A stretch of DNA of 64,000 nucleotides from Thermodesulfovibrionales bacterium (GTDB taxonomy: Bacteria > Nitrospirota > Thermodesulfovibrionia > Thermodesulfovibrionales > Dissulfurispiraceae): positions 1 through 64,000 of the forward strand of contig JAOAGP010000098.1 of NCBI GenBank assembly GCA_026415695.1. The letters run 5' to 3'. Shown here in pieces: positions 1 to 48,124 of this stretch. Below the pieces are notes generated by a model. It was not told where the DNA came from and did not search any database. It worked only from the letters and a program-made list of their open reading frames with translations. A program made the position numbers and the translations under genes. The stretch's first letter is position 1, and every line of letters begins with the position of its first letter.

Positions 1-51
1 ACCCATTTAACTCGCTTAACGCAAGCATCTTAACAAGATTATATCAAAAAA

Positions 52-72
52 CTTGACATAAAGTTACTAAAG
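52..72 (+). promoter_or_regulatory. Candidate HspR operator (HAIR-like inverted repeat)
   Basis: CTTGACA, seven bases, then ACTAAAG. The known HspR operator (HAIR) is CTTGAGT-N7-ACTCAAG; this site matches 11 of 14 defined positions with the exact 7-base spacer. It covers the -35 box and most of the spacer of the dnaJ promoter, so HspR binding would exclude RNA polymerase. The hspR gene is the second gene of the same operon, which makes negative autoregulation the simplest reading. The similarity is seen; the regulation is inferred. Confidence 0.72.
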
Positions 73-81
73 TTTTATAAT
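53..81 (+). promoter_or_regulatory. Consensus sigma-70 promoter of dnaJ-hspR-clpB
   Basis: TTGACA at 53-58 and TATAAT at 76-81 are separated by exactly 17 bases, a perfect match to the housekeeping consensus. The dnaJ start codon follows at 105, preceded by GAGGTG at 93-98. A promoter this strong in front of a heat-shock operon is expected to need repression, which fits the operator overlapping it. Promoter assignment is by sequence only; no transcript data are available. Confidence 0.85.
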
Positions 82-104
82 AAGAAAAAAGTGAGGTGAA
101 AGGT

Positions 105-1172
105 ATGGCGACACAAATAAAGGACTACTACAAGATATTAGGTGTTGAAAAAAATGCCTCTGAAGATGAGATTAAAAAGGCATTTAGGAGATTGGCTCGT
201 AAATACCATCCTGACCTAAATCCCGGTGATAAAACAGCTGAAGAGAAATTTAAGGAGATAAATGAGGCATATGCTGTTTTGAGCGATCCGAAAAAACGCG
301 CAGAATACGATAGAGGGGAAACAATAGATTTCAGCGAGTTTTTTAAGGGTGGTAAGGGCTTCTCTTTTGATTTTGGCGATTTTGGAAACATCTTTGGAGA
401 CATCTTTGGAGGCGGCTTTTCAACTAACCAATATCAGATGCAAGGTGAAGACCTGCGAATGAGCATGGAATTAGACTTAGTGGACGCATTTAAAGGAGTG
501 ACCAAAGAGATAACAATTAACAGGGCAAAACAGTGTCAGACATGCGGAGGAAAGGGTGCTAAGAGTTATGAAACTTGTCAGATGTGTGGTGGCAAAGGGA
601 CTATATCGTCTGGAAAAGGCTTTTTTAGAAGTATGCAACCATGCAGTAATTGTGGTGGAAGCGGCAAGAGGATCAAAGAGAGTTGCAACACCTGCAGAGG
701 TGATGGAAGGATATATCAGACAGAGACCGTCAAGGTAAAGATACCTCAAGGTGTCAAGGATGGGTCAACGGTTAGACTTCGTGGTTTAGGCAACGCTGGT
801 ATTGGTGGTGGTCAAAGTGGTGATTTACTCATAGATGTAACCGTAAGACCACATCCCTACCTTAAGAGGATTGATGATGATGTGTATGTGCAGGTGCCAG
901 TAACATTTGGTGAAGCGGCATTGGGGACTAAGATTGAGGTGCCAACCATTGATGGTATGGCAATGATGAAGATACCAGCAGGCACCCAAGGAGGTCAAAA
1001 GTTTAAATTGGCTGGCAAAGGCTTTATTGACCCAAAGACAAAGAAAAGGGGAGACCAATATGTTGAGATAAAGATAGTAGTCCCTAAAGATATTCCAGAG
1101 AGTGCTCATAAGGCAATACAAGAAATAGAGTCGTTATATAGGGAAAATCCGAGGAAAGGATGGGTGAAGTAG
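105..1172 (+). CDS. dnaJ: Chaperone protein DnaJ (Hsp40)
   Basis: Type I J-domain co-chaperone that stimulates DnaK ATP hydrolysis and delivers unfolded clients. The J domain occupies about residues 5-70 with the essential HPD at 35-37. A Gly/Phe-rich segment follows (about 82-105), then a zinc-binding region from residue 144 with four CXXCXGXG-type motifs ([32 protein letters not shown]), then the C-terminal substrate-binding domain. At 355 residues it is close to the usual 370-380. ATG at 105 is preferred over an upstream in-frame GTG at 96 because GAGGTG at 93-98 sits six bases before it. It is the first gene of an operon with hspR (1-base gap) and clpB. No dnaK or grpE lies nearby. Expected to be controlled by HspR at the overlapping operator. 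Confidence 0.95.
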
Positions 1173-1173
1173 T

Positions 1174-1533
1174 ATGCGTGTTAGAGGAGACAAAAACAAG
1201 CCATTATATATGATAAGTGTTGTATCCAAGATGTTGGAAGTGCATCCTCAAACGATACGGATGTATGAAAGAGAGGGTTTTGTGTGTCCACACAGGATTA
1301 ATAAGCAGAGGCTTTATTCAGACGAGGATATAGAGACACTCAATCTTGTGGTTCAACTCACAAAAGAATTGGGAGTAAATAAAGCAGGAGTGGATATCAT
1401 CTTGAGGATGAGACAAAAACTCTTACTCTTGCAAAAGGAGATGATGGAGGTATTGAATTATTTAGATGAGGACATAAGGCATGAGTTTCAAAGAAGGTTG
1501 CAGGAGATAATAAAAAGTAACGAGGAGGTTTAG
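1174..1533 (+). CDS. hspR: Heat-shock repressor HspR (MerR family)
   Basis: A 119-residue MerR-type regulator. The winged helix-turn-helix lies near residues 11-80, with the HspR-typical run [12 protein letters not shown] about residues 24-35 and a following wing ending in RLYSDEDI. The C-terminal part is a short helix, as in HspR proteins, with no ligand-binding domain or metal-binding cysteines. HspR represses heat-shock genes with DnaK as co-repressor in actinobacteria and acts similarly in Helicobacter. Here it sits between dnaJ and clpB, and a HAIR-like site overlaps the operon promoter, so it probably represses its own operon. The start ATG is one base after the dnaJ stop; ATG at 1210 is a possible shorter start but would cut into the DNA-binding domain. 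Confidence 0.88.
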
Positions 1534-1535
1534 AT

Positions 1536-4148
1536 ATGAGACTTGACAAGTTAACTATAAAAAGTCAAGAGGCATTGGCTGAGGCACAAAGGATTGCACA
1601 GTCAAAAGGAAACCAACAGATAGAACCAGAACACCTTTTGGTAGCATTGCTTTCAGATACAGATGGTATAGCCCAGAGGATACTATTAAATGCAAATTGT
1701 AATGTCAAATCTATAATGGATGACTGTCTTAAGGCAATTGAAAAGTTTCCAAAGGTAAGTGGTGCTGTGCCATTAGGTCAGATATACATATCACCATCAC
1801 TGAATCAGGTTTTTGAAAGGTCATTTAAACAGATGGAGCATTTAGGGGATGAGTATCTAAGTGTTGAACATCTACTCATTGGTATTACAGATACTGACTG
1901 CAAGGCAAAAGAGATATTAAAAAGACATGGTGCAGATACAAATAGGATATTAGAAAGTATGAAGGAGGTTAGAGGCACGCACAAGGTAACCGATCCAAAC
2001 CCGGAAGATAAGTATCAAGCACTTGTAAGGTATGGTAAAGACCTTACTGACCTTGCAAGGAAGGGAAAACTTGACCCTGTTATTGGTAGAGATGAGGAGA
2101 TTAGAAGGGTAATCCATGTCCTTTCAAGGAGGACTAAAAACAACCCTGTGCTCATAGGCGACCCCGGAGTTGGTAAAACCGCAATCGTGGAAGGGCTTGC
2201 ACAGAGGATAGTTGCTGGAGATGTCCCTGAGAGTTTGAGAGACAAGCGTCTTGTAGCAATTGATATTGGAGGACTGATTGCAGGCTCAAAGTATAGGGGT
2301 GAATTTGAGGAGCGTCTGAAGGCGGTGCTAAAAGAGATAGAGCAATCTGAAGGACAGATAATCACCTTTATAGACGAGATGCACACCCTTGTAGGTGCAG
2401 GTTCTGCCGAAGGTGCTGTTGATGCAGCAAACATGCTAAAACCAGCACTTGCAAGGGGAGAGTTGAGATGTATCGGGGCTACCACCGTAGATGAATACCG
2501 AAAACACATTGAAAAAGACCCAGCACTTGAGAGGAGATTTCAGCCTATATTGGTAAAAGAACCATCAGTAGAAGACACCATATCTATTTTAAGGGGTCTT
2601 AAGGAAAGATACGAGGTTCATCATGGTGTTAAGATTAAGGATTCAGCCCTAATTGCAGCGGGGGTTTTATCACACAGGTATATCACAGATAGATATCTAC
2701 CTGATAAGGCAATTGACCTAATAGATGAGGCATCTGCGAGATTGAGGATGGAGATTGACAGTATGCCTGTGGAATTAGACGAGATAGAAAGAAGGATTAG
2801 ACAACTTGAGATAGAAAAACAAGCACTTCTCAAGGATAATACATCAGACACACAAGAAAAACTTGAAAAGATAAACAAGGAGATTGCCGAACTTGGTATC
2901 AAGAGGGATGAACTAAAAAGACAGTGGTCTTCTGAAAAGGAGATAATCCAAAAGATTAGACAGATAAAAGAGGAGATTGAGCAAACCAAGATTGCATCAG
3001 AGATGGCTGAAAGACAGGGGGATTTAACAAAGGCGGCAGAATTAAGATACGGCAAACTGACAGAACTTCAGAAGATGCTTGAGAGGGCAAATGATGAACT
3101 CATAAATACCCAAAAACAAAGAAAGATGCTCAAGGAAGAGGTTGATGAAGAAGACATTGCAGAGGTGGTCGCAAAATGGACAGGTGTGCCAGTAAGTAGG
3201 ATGCTTGAAAGTGAGGTCAGTAAACTCATCAAGATGGAAGAGAGACTAAAACAAAGGGTGGTAGGGCAAGACGAGGCTATCATTGCGGTTTCAAATGCAG
3301 TAAGGAGGGCGAGGGCAGGGATACAAGACCCAAATAGACCAATAGGTTCATTCATCTTTTTAGGTCCTACAGGTGTGGGAAAAACTGAATTGGCAAAGGC
3401 ACTTGCGGAATTTCTTTTTGATGATGAAAACGCAATGATTAGGATAGACATGTCTGAGTATCAAGAAAGACATACTGTGTCAAGATTGATTGGTGCACCA
3501 CCGGGTTATGTTGGGTATGACGAGGGAGGTCAACTTACAGAGGCAGTAAGGAGAAGACCGTATTCGGTCATTCTTTTGGATGAGGTAGAAAAGGCACATC
3601 CCGAGGTCTTCAATGTGTTGTTACAACTACTTGATGATGGCAGACTCACAGACGGACATGGTCGGACGGTTGACTTTAAGAATACGGTTGTTATCATGAC
3701 CTCAAATATTGGAAGTCATATTATCCAAGAATATCTTTCTGAAAACATCAAAACAGAAAACCTAAAGGAAAGGGTCATGGCAGAGTTAAAGAACTTTTTC
3801 AGACCAGAATTTTTAAACAGGGTTGATGAGATCATCGTATTTAACCCATTAAATGATGCGTTGTTAAAGGACATTGTAAGGATACAGATACAGAGGATGA
3901 AAAGGTATTTAGAGGGCAAAAAGATAAATATCAACCTTACAGACAACGCACTTGAGTTGATTGCGAAGGCTGGTTATGACCCTGTCTTTGGTGCAAGACC
4001 TCTAAAGAGGGCAATTCAGCGTGAGATACTCAACCCTCTTGCTATGCACATTCTTGATGGGAGTATTAAAGAGGGGGATGCGGTAGAGGTTGATGTTAAG
4101 GATGGTAGGATTGTATTTGAAACAGTTGCTGTAGGTGAGATAGTGTAA
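1536..4148 (+). CDS. clpB: ATP-dependent disaggregase ClpB (Hsp100)
   Basis: Full-length 870-residue AAA+ protein-disaggregating chaperone that works with DnaK/DnaJ to resolubilise aggregates. Order: two Clp N-terminal repeats (about 1-145); first AAA module with Walker A GDPGVGKT near 208; long coiled-coil middle domain (about 400-525) that identifies ClpB rather than ClpA or ClpC; second AAA module with Walker A GPTGVGKT near 610; C-terminal D2 small domain. No ClpP-binding tripeptide loop was noticed. The ribosome site GAGGAGG lies just before the ATG. It is the last gene of the dnaJ-hspR-clpB operon, so it should be derepressed on heat shock through HspR. Intact. Confidence 0.96.
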
Positions 4149-4334
4149 AGAAACTTTTATGCTCATGTAATTAATTGATAAATCTAATATATTTGAGGAG
4201 TTAAGAACCGTGTGTTTAATGCAGGGAACAAAGCAGGAGCCATGAATAACGATACAAATTCCGAGACTATGTGAAAATCCGTTATGTTGATGTAGTAATT
4301 TAAAATTAGAAAAACATGACACAAGAAGTAATTA
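4149..4334. other. Unassigned stretch between clpB and its terminator
   Basis: About 186 bases without a credible coding frame. The 3' part of this stretch leads directly into a strong intrinsic terminator at 4335-4370. It could be the 3' untranslated region of clpB or a small independent RNA. I do not recognise it as tmRNA, 6S, SRP RNA or RNase P. A purine-rich central block around 4217-4243 stands out, but no structure was established by eye. Confidence 0.3.
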
Positions 4335-4370
4335 GATGAGGTAGTTGTGTTTGCAACTACCTCATCTTTT
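4335..4370 (+). terminator. Intrinsic terminator downstream of clpB
   Basis: Perfect 13-bp stem GATGAGGTAGTTG (4335-4347) paired with CAACTACCTCATC (4354-4366), a 6-base loop and a TTTT run. It is the first strong terminator after clpB and ends the heat-shock operon or a small RNA that starts in the preceding 186 bases. Confidence 0.8.
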
Positions 4371-4753
4371 CCGACTTTGTCGGTTTTTAGACATAACCAA
4401 TTGATATATTTATATTCCTATCTTTTATTAGGCACTACTATAAAATCTGCAAGGTTCTTTAAGTGTTCTAATTCACTGTCTGTTAATGCCGTCCCTACAT
4501 GACGGACTATACGCTGTTTTACCTTATTACCAGTCCTTATGTTTTCAACAATCTGGACTGCCTTCTTTGGTGAATTTGGTGAAGTTTTTATTCTGACAAA
4601 CATGATAAATAGAATATACCAGAAACAAAGCAAAAAGTCAAGCACAAAAAACACATTAGGCACTACATAAAGGATTTTCACCTGAAGAAGACATAAATAA
4701 TTGAAATTACTTAAGACTGAAGTTGTAGTTATGAAAAAACTGACAAAGTCGGG
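4371..4753. mobile_element. Decayed IS remnant with terminal inverted repeats
   Basis: The left end CCGACTTTGTCGGTTTTT (4371-4388) and the right end, read on the minus strand from about 4752 (CCGACTTTGTCAGTTTTT), match at 17 of 18 positions; CATAAC follows a few bases inside both ends. Between them lies only the N-terminal part of an IS1634-like transposase on the minus strand (4418-4603), flanked by a 12-bp direct repeat ATTAGGCACTAC (4427-4438 and 4655-4666). This looks like an internally deleted insertion sequence of about 380 bp, similar in form to a MITE. No obvious target-site duplication is visible. The left end is itself a small palindrome followed by T5 and could also act as a terminator. 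Confidence 0.6.
4418..4603 (-). pseudogene. IS1634-like transposase, N-terminal fragment
   Basis: Sixty-one codons starting MFVRIKTSPNSPKKAVQIVE at 4603. This resembles the N-terminus of IS1634/IS4-type transposases (MFVR-K..., then QIVEN-R...G.VKQR.V..VG). Full-length members of this group are about 500-600 residues and carry a DDE catalytic core, which is entirely missing here. The frame ends soon after the DNA repeat GTAGTGCCTAAT, where an internal deletion probably joined unrelated sequence. The upstream in-frame extension to 4681 encodes a hydrophobic, non-family sequence and is not counted. It cannot encode an active enzyme. Family assignment is from recognition of the N-terminal pattern only. 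Confidence 0.65.
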
Positions 4754-4767
4754 AGTTGACTTTCCAA

Positions 4768-4834
4768 CTTCCCCGCTTCCCCGCTTCCTTCCCCGTTACC
4801 CTTGAACCCTTGACACCTCGAACCCTTGAACCCT
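4768..4834. repeat. Short tandem motifs CTTCCCCG and CCCTTGAA
   Basis: Three copies of CTTCCCCG (4768-4775, 4776-4783, 4788-4795) are followed by four CCCTTGAA-like units (4799-4834, the third preceded by TCGAA). Low-complexity intergenic repeats of this kind occur in many environmental bacterial genomes. They have no coding potential and mark an unconstrained region next to the IS remnant. Confidence 0.6.
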
Positions 4835-4839
4835 AAAAA

Positions 4840-4907
4840 CTCTGTGTCTCTGCATCTCTGTGGTAAAAAAAGTTTTGTAATAACCACAGAGACATGGAGG
4901 CACAGAG
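4840..4907. repeat. Long imperfect inverted repeat (CTCTGTG type)
   Basis: A 25-base arm at 4840-4864 beginning CTCTGTGTCTC and ending TCTCTGTGGT pairs with 4883-4907, which begins ACCACAGAGA and ends CACAGAG; 20 of 25 positions are complementary, with an 18-base loop. The CTCTGTG/CACAGAG motif is a known type of dispersed intergenic repeat in environmental genomes. A long cruciform or RNA hairpin could form, but no T-run follows directly, so it is not called a terminator. Confidence 0.65.
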
Positions 4908-5245
4908 GTTAAAACAGGGGTCAAGGGGGATTGGGGAGGGAAGGCAAATCATAGTTTGTCATTTAGTTTTTGTAATTTGCTGGTAGCATTAGAAATATGA
5001 TTGCTTTAATGCGTTAGAAATTTTTTTTATTAGCATTACTCTAAAGGTCTAATTATCCGTTACAGTCTTTTTAAGGTGTTTATCTCGAGATTTTTCATTG
5101 TTGTGTTTATTAATTCATCATACTAACTAAATTGATTAATAACCATAAAACCATCTCAATGGACAAAACCAACCTTTTATGATAGATTATCACATATTTT
5201 AGTATATCCACAGCACTTTGCGAATAAAAAAGGAGAGGTAAAAAC
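4908..5245. other. AT-rich intergenic leader of the secreted-protein gene
   Basis: No coding frame or RNA gene is seen. The segment is strongly AT-rich from about 4950 on and ends with AGGAGAGG at about 5231-5238, the ribosome site for the gene at 5246. A promoter for that gene presumably lies here, but no convincing -35/-10 pair was found by eye. Confidence 0.4.
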
Positions 5246-8020
5246 ATGAAAACACAGTTTTGCATTTCTGCGTTAGTATTGTTTTTCTTAATACCAACGG
5301 TTGCCTTTGCTGGGCAAAATGAGGCGTATGAGGCTGCAAAGGAATCGTTTGAAAAGTTAAATACTACTTATTCTATGGTTAAGAATACTGTTGATGAAAC
5401 ATACGAAGTCTTTGCGAGGTTTAATAATGGTGTTAGAACATGGAGAAATGCGGTTACAAGGGAGACTCAAAACATGGGCATAGAAGAGATTGATAAACTT
5501 GCTGATGATAAGATTGAGGCAGTTATTGATAAGTTATTTGATAAGGCTAAAGAGGCAATCGGTATTCCAGATGGAATAGAGTTGGAGATTCCAGAGTCAA
5601 TGAAGGAAAAGGCAATAGAAAAATTAAGAAACAAGTTGAAGGGATATATCCCACCTAAAGTAGTAAATAGATTAGGTTATATGTATACATTAAGTGCCCT
5701 TGACAGAAAACTAAGAGACAACAACATCTATAGCAATCTTGAATATCTAAAGAGTAGTTTTGACAAAGGGGCAAAATTACTTGGAAACTTCAAAAATGCG
5801 ATAAAGTTTATAGATACCTTTTCACCAAGAAGCACGATTGACAGCCCCGTTGGAAGGCTAAAGAATGTGAAGGATTTTCTTGGGATGATAGGAGACATCG
5901 CAAAACCAATACCGTTGATGGGGACGATTATAAACAACTATGCTAAGGCTACTGATGCCTTCATGACCGCTCTCAATGACCTTGATAATAAGTTAAAAGA
6001 GGCTCGTCAAGGGTCACTTTGTGGCCAAGGAGGTGTTGATAGAGACATCCAAGACTTTTTTGAAAGGACATATCCGACTCAAGACTGCCTTACTTACTTT
6101 GCATTGCCTTCAAGTGAATATCCTCAACTTAATCCAATAAGGGCATGGAGAGGCAATTATATATTTGTCTGGTTTGAAGGCAATGGAACAATGGTTAGAG
6201 AAAGTGACTTTGAGATTTTATATAGGGCGTTTTCATCTCTTACAAATAACTATACATATAGACAATTGGTCAATCATGGACTTTTTTATAATCTCATAAA
6301 GTCATCGCATTATACAAATGTTAGAGGTCTTGCAAGCAGGGCAAAGGAGATTCATAAAAGGTTTATGAGTTATGAGTTTTCTGATGTCTTAAAGATGGAA
6401 GGATTTTATAAGGATGACTACATAGACTATTTTGTGGCTCCAAGCGGGAATGCCTACAGGTTGTTGTTGGATGCAGACGAATTTGTTGGTCTTTATTTCT
6501 TTAGTAAGACCTTTAAGGATGATGTTGAGTCATTGTACAACAAATACAAAAATGCCTTTGTAATCAATGGCACTATCAAGCCAGAGACCCCAAATATGAG
6601 CATTGCTAATATATCTGTATTTGTTGATAATCAACCCCCTAAAGAACTTAAATGTGCGGAGTTTTGCACCTTAAGACATGTGGTTTACAATGGTAGATAC
6701 AATATCAGGGTAGTGGCTGAAGGGTTTAAGGATGTGAATAAGACCTTTCAAAACGATCGTTATCCCCTTGTTATGCTTTCTATGTCAAGTCTTAAGATTG
6801 AGGCAGATAAAAAAAATGTTACAGTTGGTCAAAAGGTTATACTTACAGCCATCCTTGAAGGTAGAGTAGCACAGACTGGGAGATTCTACTGGTCAATAAA
6901 TGGAAAACCTTATGGAAGTAACACTAACAGGATAGAATTTGTGCCTACTCAATCTGGTATCTATAAAGCCAATTTAACTCTTGCAGATGATAGGGGTAGG
7001 ATTATTCTTCAGGCAGATTATTCTATTAATGTGATTGAGCAATTAACTTTATATATCCAAGGTCCGTCTGAGGTTCAACGGGATGTTGAGACGACATTTT
7101 ATGCCCAAGTAAAAGGTGGACTGTTTAGTCAAGATAAGGGGATATATACATACTCATGGCAATTGAACGGACAGCAATACGGCGGGAATGATAACTTCAT
7201 CAAGGTCAGATTTAACAAGGAAGGTAGTCAATCTATCAAGACAACCCTATGGCAATGGATAAAAGAGCAAAACAAATGGCAGAAGGTAACAGAGGCATCT
7301 CACTATTTAGTAGTAAAATCTGCACAGCAGGTCTTCATCAATGTTACTATCACAGGACCAACAAACGGATACATAGGTAATGACTTTGTATTTTATGCAA
7401 ACATAGAAAATCCTCAAAGATTAAGAGAGATTGTCAATGTTTCTAATCCACAGACGGCATTTAGATGGCGGATTAACAATAGTCCTTATGGTGGGACAGA
7501 TGGTTCACAGAGGATACGATTTGAAAATTCAGGTAAACACACAATATCTGTGATAGCATGGGTGTGGAATCCTTCAAGTAAAAATTGGATAAAGATCGGA
7601 GAGGCAAATCACATCTTTGAGGCGTTTAGTAGGCAATATACTGATAGAAGATATACACTTAAGCCCATCCCCACCCCAACACCAACACCAACTCAAACCC
7701 CTACTCCAAAATCCACTCCCACTCCTACTCCTACGCCGAAGGTAAGACAATTTAGTGAATTAAGTCCTCAAGAGCAAAAAGAGGTTCTCAATTGTCTTTG
7801 TAGGTGTAATAGCACTGCAACATCATCAGTTTCGGTTTATTATGATACTAAACCAGACAACCACTCACCCAGTTGTAGTGATTTAAAAAACGGTCCGTGT
7901 GTTAATAAGGGATTTGGATGTTGGCGTCATGTCCCACAAAACACTGGACAATGTGCAGAGCGATGTTATAAGTCTCACAATGTCCATTCTGTGCCGAGTA
8001 GTTATATGAATGCAAGGTAG
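5246..8020 (+). CDS. Secreted multidomain Ig-like protein with Pro-Thr linker
   Basis: A 924-residue exported protein of unknown function. Signal peptide 1-22 ends VAFA before GQNE. Next is a helical region (about 25-260), then a mixed region with a PEGA-like segment near 460-520. Three related beta-sandwich repeats follow, marked by WSINGKPYG (about 548), WQLNGQQYGG (about 637) and WRINNSPYGG (about 740), each followed by an IRF-type strand. A PTPTPT-rich linker (about 808-832) leads to a C-terminal domain with eight cysteines, probably disulphide-bonded. No catalytic motif or membrane anchor is seen. AGGAGAGG precedes the ATG. Its last 11 bases overlap a TMTC-like glycosyltransferase gene, suggesting the pair works together, with the linker or Ig-like domains as possible acceptors. 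The function is inference. Confidence 0.72.
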   Translation: MKTQFCISALVLFFLIPTVAFAGQNEAYEAAKESFEKLNTTYSMVKNTVDETYEVFARFNNGVRTWRNAVTRETQNMGIEEIDKLADDKIEAVIDKLFDKAKEAIGIPDGIELEIPESMKEKAIEKLRNKLKGYIPPKVVNRLGYMYTLSALDRKLRDNNIYSNLEYLKSSFDKGAKLLGNFKNAIKFIDTFSPRSTIDSPVGRLKNVKDFLGMIGDIAKPIPLMGTIINNYAKATDAFMTALNDLDNKLKEARQGSLCGQGGVDRDIQDFFERTYPTQDCLTYFALPSSEYPQLNPIRAWRGNYIFVWFEGNGTMVRESDFEILYRAFSSLTNNYTYRQLVNHGLFYNLIKSSHYTNVRGLASRAKEIHKRFMSYEFSDVLKMEGFYKDDYIDYFVAPSGNAYRLLLDADEFVGLYFFSKTFKDDVESLYNKYKNAFVINGTIKPETPNMSIANISVFVDNQPPKELKCAEFCTLRHVVYNGRYNIRVVAEGFKDVNKTFQNDRYPLVMLSMSSLKIEADKKNVTVGQKVILTAILEGRVAQTGRFYWSINGKPYGSNTNRIEFVPTQSGIYKANLTLADDRGRIILQADYSINVIEQLTLYIQGPSEVQRDVETTFYAQVKGGLFSQDKGIYTYSWQLNGQQYGGNDNFIKVRFNKEGSQSIKTTLWQWIKEQNKWQKVTEASHYLVVKSAQQVFINVTITGPTNGYIGNDFVFYANIENPQRLREIVNVSNPQTAFRWRINNSPYGGTDGSQRIRFENSGKHTISVIAWVWNPSSKNWIKIGEANHIFEAFSRQYTDRRYTLKPIPTPTPTPTQTPTPKSTPTPTPTPKVRQFSELSPQEQKEVLNCLCRCNSTATSSVSVYYDTKPDNHSPSCSDLKNGPCVNKGFGCWRHVPQNTGQCAERCYKSHNVHSVPSSYMNAR

Positions 8021-47775: not shown

Positions 47776-48124
47776 CCTTTATGATGGTCTTTACATTCCC
47801 TCGTGGATTAAAATCACCAATCACCTCAAGGTATCGGGGAGATAACTTTGAGTATAGTTCAGAAAAGATGATGTTTGTAACCTCTTCGTGTGAGATATAT
47901 CTTTGCCTAAAGGAGTTTAGATAGAGCTTGAGTGATTTTAACTCAACAATCTTTTTATCAGGTTTATAATTGATGATAATTGTGGCAAAATCAGGATACC
48001 CAGAACGAGGACATAGGCAAGTAAATTCGGGAAATGTTATGTTTACCTCATACTGCCTTTCTGGGTTTGGATTATCCCAGATCTCTATCTCTGCCTTTTT
48101 TATTGCCTCTTCACCATATTTCAT
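47756..48124 (-). CDS. queF: NADPH-dependent 7-cyano-7-deazaguanine reductase QueF
   Basis: A 122-residue type I (YkvM-like) QueF that reduces preQ0 to preQ1 in queuosine synthesis. The catalytic Cys lies in the [14 protein letters not shown] segment (about 34-47), and the family signature [13 protein letters not shown] at about 61-73 contains the NADPH-binding QueF motif. It complements queH and queA located at 13.4-16.2 kb. TAAAAT ends six bases before the ATG and no Shine-Dalgarno is visible. Divergent from rfbA with a 30-base gap. Confidence 0.92.

Follow-up and report, generated by a model that had tools for sequence, protein, structure and literature searches.

Positions 52-72 of the window, the 64,000-nucleotide stretch of Thermodesulfovibrionales DNA analyzed here, very probably form an autoregulatory operator for the repressor HspR, set within the promoter of a dnaJ-hspR-clpB operon. 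We consider it highly likely that HspR binds this site, represses its own consensus promoter, lets go when proteins unfold and then closes the promoter again; binding, repression and heat induction by HspR at this locus are predictions drawn from sequence. Resemblance to the HAIR motif by its letters alone means little, and it is the position of the site and its conservation that carry the case for an operator.

The probable operator, its promoter and the operon

The initial annotation described a perfect TTGACA-17-TATAAT promoter with its −35 box inside CTTGACA-N7-ACTAAAG, an element agreeing with HAIR at 11 of 14 positions, and direct reading confirmed this description (Table 1). The arms CTTGACA (52-58) and ACTAAAG (66-72) enclose the spacer TAAAGTT (59-65), and the mismatches to HAIR fall at both inner positions of the left arm and at one position of the right arm. 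The site is a close variant of the HAIR operator CTTGAGT-N7-ACTCAAG located at a heat-shock promoter, and outside the order the agreement reaches 13 of 14. A promoter scan of positions 1-4800 returned 12 sites overall, compared with 11.9 in shuffled sequence, and a 12-of-12 match, TTGACA-17-TATAAT, stood before dnaJ alone. Upstream of the operator 51 bases are known, the window starting at base 1 of contig C57 in a genome of 2.2 Mb and 123 contigs.

Table 1. Features of the operon and its control region, with window coordinates.
Feature	Position	Strand	Description and basis
HAIR-type operator CTTGACA-N7-ACTAAAG (putative)	52..72	+	Left arm holds the −35 box; 11/14 HAIR positions; direct reading and comparison
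−35 box TTGACA	53..58	+	Direct reading and promoter scan
−10 box TATAAT	76..81	+	17-base spacer, same distance in most aligned relatives; direct reading and promoter scan
dnaJ	105..1172	+	Genome's second DnaJ: J-domain, four CxxCxGxG-type zinc motifs (from translation), C-terminal domain
hspR	1174..1533	+	MerR-type winged-helix repressor, 119 residues
clpB	1536..4148	+	Disaggregase, 870 residues; TIGR03346 1375 bits (cut-off 1232)
Probable operon end	4334..4388	+	Hairpin of 14 pairs (4334-4367) and a few T, then a smaller one (4371-4383) and five T; direct reading and hairpin scan

Gaps of only 1 base (dnaJ/hspR) and 2 bases (hspR/clpB) separate the three genes, and a GTG at 96 is a possible alternative start for dnaJ. 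As far as the contig reaches, dnaK and grpE lie outside the operon; both are on contig C62. At the probable operon end, the hairpin scan assigned the larger hairpin to the − strand alone and the smaller one to the + strand, and an Rfam search of positions 1-6000 returned no match. Farther downstream, an 87-aa open reading frame on the − strand (4418-4681) gives, from its sequence, the impression of an N-terminal piece of a transposase, and a low-complexity stretch at 4780-4925, with CCCTTGAACCC repeats and the inverted pair CTCTGTGTCTCTG / CAGAGACATGGAGGCACAGAGG, has the look of a dispersed repeat.

That the second gene encodes HspR, as initially annotated, is likewise supported. Two HspR models were the best NCBIfam matches of the window protein, though its 90.6 bits lie below the equivalog cut-off of 105, and HspR models matched 69 of the 69 members of the protein alignment. 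Pfam MerR_1 scored 57.4 bits (cut-off 21.6), and the HPQTxR of the recognition-helix region was present in all 69 aligned proteins, including three from actinobacteria. The AlphaFold model of the monomer (mean pLDDT 89.8) has the MerR winged-helix fold with a long C-terminal helix (70-117) that characterizes HspR, and the gene shows the linkage to J-protein and chaperone genes that is likewise characteristic. The best solved structural match of this model was the MerR-family protein GlnR on DNA (4r4e_B, E 1.9e-4). A CbpM/J-domain complex was also among the structural matches; this likeness is notable, since CbpM is a J-domain binder for which an evolutionary relation to HspR has been proposed (in part of PMC4063869). 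The same genome contains a second MerR-type match (G000:C101, 42% identity over 59 residues), and five of 80 genomes have at most weak MerR-like matches to HspR.

Given the MerR fold of HspR and a dyad that overlaps the promoter spacer, HspR could instead activate the promoter as MerR and CueR do, by untwisting a long spacer. However, MerR activators act on spacers of 19-20 bp, and the window promoter, like those of most aligned relatives, has one of 17 bp. A perfect TTGACA-17-TATAAT promoter needs no activator, and the dyad starts at the −35 box rather than being centred in the spacer. Activation is thus very unlikely, and repression by HspR is the reading that we prefer.

Conservation of the site within the order and the phylum

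Counting motifs within a single genome was rejected as uninformative, the counts being barely above controls. When the 104 bases upstream of dnaJ were put through 5000 dinucleotide shuffles, 18 of these reached an agreement of 11 of 14; HAIR with at most three mismatches occurred 6 times in the window (3.37 expected) and 144 times in the whole genome, compared with 102 for the reversed pattern. At 47927-47947, a 13 of 14 match to HAIR (CTTGAGTGATTTTAACTCAAC), better than that of the operator, lies inside a 122-aa open reading frame whose translation gives the impression of queF, and the match score alone is therefore misleading. When the genome was scanned by spacing, 11 free bases gave 118 places and 10 free bases gave 43 (9 and 7 in the reversed controls). 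The excess of 118 over 43 was not taken as regulation, probably arising because a pattern of 21 bases, unlike one of 20, stays in codon phase; of 29 places with 11 free bases that were checked, 28 lay inside open reading frames of at least 100 aa.

Comparison with relatives was more informative for position and conservation. Gene order dnaJ-hspR-clpB was found in 98 of 101 loci, a set in which many of 30 loci come from genomes that other loci already represent and three loci are actinobacterial, and the remaining 3 loci were cut by a contig end. The nearest named relatives are Nitrospirota metagenome genomes, several of them Thermodesulfovibrionales. After removal of duplicates (by the last 130 bases), of L056 and L152, whose upstream sequence was too short, and of L149 and L150, which are not Nitrospirota, 67 distinct Nitrospirota upstream regions remained. 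At an arm spacing of 7, 58 of these 67 regions had at least 10 of the 14 HAIR letters and 24 had at least 11, whereas 100 rounds of shuffling gave 2.81 such regions with at least 10 letters on average and at most 7. Each of the other spacings from 0 to 15 gave 1 to 6 regions, except spacing 2 with 19; this second peak was rejected as a separate signal, with 18 of the 19 overlapping spacing-7 sites (the exception is L063).

In an alignment of 66 sites, which were chosen by HAIR likeness and include four poor picks as judged by their left arms (L068, L120, L130 and L132), a −10 box stood at a constant distance, with T in 59, A in 60, T in 60, A in 59 and T in 61 of the 66 at its first, second, third, fifth and sixth positions. 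Within the right arm, the T at position 16 and the A at position 18 (counting from 0) were kept in 65 and 66 of the 66 sites, respectively; these positions mirror A4 and T2 of the left arm, giving a dyad pattern. Sigma-70 promoters are not known to require such a sequence between the −35 and −10 boxes, where the right arm sits. On a tree of the three encoded proteins, right-arm columns 14 to 20 changed 6, 5, 0, 7, 0, 15 and 8 times and the seven spacer columns 12 to 24 times each, such that column 19 (15 changes) is kept no better than the spacer. The 66 sites of this tree analysis were chosen by likeness to CTTGACA plus three right arms, without L068 (genus g16), for which no site was aligned, and both schemes of choosing sites favor conserved columns or arms. 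Weak sites occur in L063 (also genus g16), L075, L120 and L130.

Searched exactly, the pattern CTTGACA-N7-WMTMAAG occurred at 61 places in 80 genomes, including the genome of the window, compared with 10 for the reversed pattern; hspR lies 1077-1143 bases downstream of 26 of the 61. Just 26 of the 75 genomes having hspR carry the exact pattern before it. The full right arm ACTCAAG was rarer than expected, occurring in 1 of 66 sites compared with 7.7 expected from shuffled columns. Tuned operator strength as a general rule was rejected, the 21 distinct right arms giving P values of 0.48 for perfect arms and 0.06 for variance, and ACTCAAG being common outside the order. Right arms of the forms TATCAAG, TGTCAAG or their -AGG versions were seen in L078, L080, L082, L109, L111, L112, L118, L122, L126, L139, L141, L143 and L151. 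Loci with TATCAAG/TGTCAAG-type arms, which are more symmetric partners of CTTGACA, group together on the tree, and a shift of HspR specificity is possible there.

Across the phylum, HspR was found at E 1e-15 in 74 of 148 evenly sampled genomes. The comparison outside the order used 34 loci, one of them from the same class as the window genome, and 32 of the 34 have dnaJ-hspR-clpB. A site agreeing with HAIR at 10 to 13 of 14 positions stood before dnaJ in 17 of 20 regions; L229 and L230 score 9 and L225 scores 8. This count of 20 leaves out six hsp20 operons, L232 (39 bases upstream) and, of the 33 upstream regions scanned, the seven that start from hspR, either with the start of dnaJ cut off or with dnaJ absent. 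In the 33 regions together, an arm spacing of 7 gave 19 with at least 10 of 14, and every other spacing from 3 to 11 gave 1 or 2. The best sites outside the order, CTTGACT-N7-ACTCAAG, belong to family f22.

Among the 26 loci with the start of dnaJ in view, at least six (L233, L249, L235, L236, L251 and L252) have the order hsp20-dnaJ-hspR-clpB, hsp20 having been sought because no site stood before dnaJ in these six. These hsp20 genes were read from frames, and two were confirmed with Pfam. All six operons have a site before hsp20, with 11 or 12 of 14 positions and a −10-like box at the same distance, though two are of family f17 and four of f18, and hence they are not independent cases. Score-10 matches inside the hsp20 coding sequence of L233 and L236 were left uncounted. 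The site therefore stands at the head of the operon whichever gene is first, which autoregulation predicts and a chance likeness does not.

One explanation for the HAIR-like letters is that they arose by chance from a −35 box and an A+T-rich spacer, with the operon constitutive or otherwise controlled. The small excess of HAIR over its reversed pattern in the whole genome fits such a reading, as does a comparable match at the mraZ promoter of the same genome (CTTGACATCTATCAAATAAAG). Against this, the site is conserved at a single spacing, its right arm is conserved on the tree, better HAIR matches occur outside the order, and the site moves to hsp20 where hsp20 leads the operon. We judge chance to be very improbable. 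Alternatively, the dyad may be real but recognized by a protein other than HspR; here the score of HspR below its equivalog cut-off, the second MerR-type match in the genome and the fact that HspR binding at this site is a prediction all leave room for a different reader. Nevertheless, the site is close in sequence to CTTGAGT-N7-ACTCAAG, the HspR box given in passages of PMC7464140 and PMC6102357, remains with the hspR operon when the first gene differs, and has precedent in Streptomyces and Helicobacter, where HspR is autoregulatory according to titles in the reference list of PMC4063869. Recognition by another protein is thus improbable, if somewhat less so than chance. We favor recognition by HspR: the sequence and spacing of the site and its position in the promoter, conserved in the order (58 of 67) and in the phylum, support the earlier suggestion that the operon is probably self-repressed through the predicted operator.

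Reach of the predicted HspR regulon

The initial annotation also proposed a compact regulon without dnaK or grpE, and this is supported in the present genome, in which dnaK, grpE and groESL carry CIRCE. A perfect CIRCE, TTAGCACTC-N9-GAGTGCTAA, is present both at hrcA-grpE-dnaK-dnaJ1 on contig C62 (G000:C62:10566-10592), where dnaJ1 is a second dnaJ separate from that of the window, and at groESL on contig C61 (G000:C61:4344-4370). Neither the groESL stretch nor any of three stretches containing the five hsp20 hits yielded a strong HAIR-type site, leaving 52-72 as the sole strong HAIR-like site found at a heat-shock promoter of this genome. Further chaperone targets such as dnaK, groEL and hsp20, which are not required of all HspR regulons, were accordingly not found in this genome. 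This outcome comes close to a result that the initial annotation named as refuting its proposal, a lack of further HAIR sites at chaperone genes: none was found at groESL or hsp20, and the dnaK operon has in its vicinity only a match at the mraZ promoter, at a distance of 398 bases from hrcA. One CIRCE-like sequence, differing at 4 of 18 positions, lies at the end of the preceding open reading frame, 50 bases before a lone hsp20 (G000:C58:8874-8900; L187:1375-1401). No RpoH-type sigma factor exceeded the family cut-off of 323 bits in this genome; two weaker matches scored 148 and 54 bits.

Exact CTTGACA-N7-WMTMAAG occurs at three places in this genome: the operator, the mraZ promoter and one place inside a gene. 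The mraZ-promoter dyad (G000:C62:10946-10966; L158:5447-5467) is one mismatch from the window operator, has TATCAT 17 bases after TTGACA, and is located 57 bases upstream of mraZ, between that gene and hrcA. This match is probably due to chance, because no other exact match stood before mraZ among the 35 places away from hspR in the 80 genomes. Less probably, HspR would act from this match at a distance on the hrcA-grpE-dnaK operon, an arrangement known from H. pylori.

Even without those before hspR, the exact matches number 35 and outnumber the reversed control, which gave 10 in all. Of the 35, 32 lie inside open reading frames of at least 70 aa on either strand, an assignment that is weak for the short frames (for example L194 and L263), and the three outside are at mraZ of this genome, 213 bases before a FabG-like gene (L264) and in a gap with no chaperone gene nearby (L265). 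None of the 35 was seen directly before a chaperone gene. Within the window genome, HAIR with at most two mismatches was found at 21 places, and all 15 examined as loci were inside open reading frames of at least 100 aa; a further motif scan gave 59 places, and among 15 examined the two outside open reading frames were the window site and the mraZ promoter. We read the near-absence of other HAIR sites as indicating a one-operon regulon, given that the operator is conserved at its own position. The HspR regulon thus seems to consist of one operon, with dnaK and groESL under CIRCE, though weak HAIR sites may exist elsewhere in the genome.

A proposed circuit and its relation to known HspR systems

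In the circuit that we propose, an HspR dimer would sit on the dyad in the absence of stress, with its left half-site coinciding with the −35 box and its right half-site within the 17-bp spacer, and would exclude RNA polymerase from an otherwise consensus sigma-70 promoter. Protein unfolding would release HspR, whether because the repressor itself unfolds or by way of the chaperones DnaJ or DnaK, allowing dnaJ, hspR and clpB to be expressed together. ClpB and the DnaJ of the operon, with DnaK from the CIRCE-bearing operon, would then clear aggregates, after which HspR would repress the promoter again. The repression step is suggested by the position of the site and by the action of HspR elsewhere. 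The chaperone feedback step is borrowed from Streptomyces, in which DnaK is a co-repressor, and from Helicobacter pylori, in which CbpA, a modulator encoded by the first gene of the hspR operon, hinders HspR (both from parts of PMC4063869 and PMC7074700).

A broader arrangement for Nitrospirota, in which HrcA/CIRCE would serve folding (GroE and DnaK-GrpE-DnaJ1) and HspR would serve disaggregation only (ClpB and DnaJ2, with Hsp20 in some lineages), is put forward tentatively and with considerable doubt. Here DnaJ2 would be a private aggregate sensor for HspR in a one-promoter feedback circuit having half of its operator as a consensus −35 box. The HAIR-like match in the mraZ-hrcA gap makes this split between two repressors less probable, as does evidence for the CIRCE side that comes from a single genome.

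The closest counterpart is the cbpA-hspR-rarA operon of H. pylori, which also has a J-protein gene first, hspR second and a HAIR-like element in its promoter, in an organism with HrcA as a second repressor (passages of PMC6102357 and PMC7074700). Mutation of that element abolished binding and raised transcription ∼6.5-fold (PMC6102357, in part). However, the third gene there is a putative helicase and here clpB, and the J-protein of the present operon carries the zinc motifs of DnaJ and scores best against DnaJ rather than CbpA models. HspR of H. pylori also binds upstream of groEL and hrcA, whereas both corresponding operons here have CIRCE, no HAIR site was found at groESL, and near hrcA there is only the distant match on the mraZ promoter. 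Streptomyces shares HspR autoregulation, the targeting of clpB and a HAIR dyad whose arms are 7 bases apart (parts of PMC2687793 and PMC6102357). There, however, HspR has the dnaK operon, clpB and lon as separate targets; in the present genome clpB belongs to the operon that encodes HspR, and CIRCE stands at dnaK and grpE. A minimal box of TTGAGY-N7-ACTCAA is given for Streptomyces (part of PMC2687793), whereas the left arm here is the −35 sequence TTGACA. In Campylobacter jejuni, passages of PMC7464140 report in vitro binding of HspR to the clp promoter and to its own operon, and describe a 21-bp imperfect repeat that is comparable to our site. Yet the cbp, clp, gro and hrc promoters were all bound there, with HrcA and HspR acting jointly on gro and hrc (same source, in part), whereas HrcA and HspR appear to have separate targets in the window genome.

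Work on HspR has covered Actinobacteria, Helicobacter and Campylobacter, and Deinococcus (parts of PMC7464140 and PMC2687793), and other phyla offer precedents for HspR itself, HAIR, autoregulation, control of clpB and a J-protein gene placed ahead of hspR. Among the matches listed in the open full-text literature there was no report of HspR control in Nitrospirota, and Thermodesulfovibrio and Leptospirillum gave no HspR-related matches there. A mention of HspR alongside Nitrospira concerns an actinobacterium (part of PMC7325909). As far as this literature extends, the phylum, an operator whose left half is the consensus −35 box, and an apparent regulon of one operon, with CIRCE at dnaK and groESL, seem to be new.

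These results provide comparative support for a predicted HspR operator in many Nitrospirota, attached to what is apparently the smallest possible regulon, a single operon. They suggest a division of chaperones between HrcA and HspR in an organism without an RpoH-type factor over the family cut-off. The aligned sites, in which the left arm is held by the promoter while the right arm varies, should be useful for finding what HspR requires. If the one-promoter circuit is true, half of the operator must double as a consensus −35 box.
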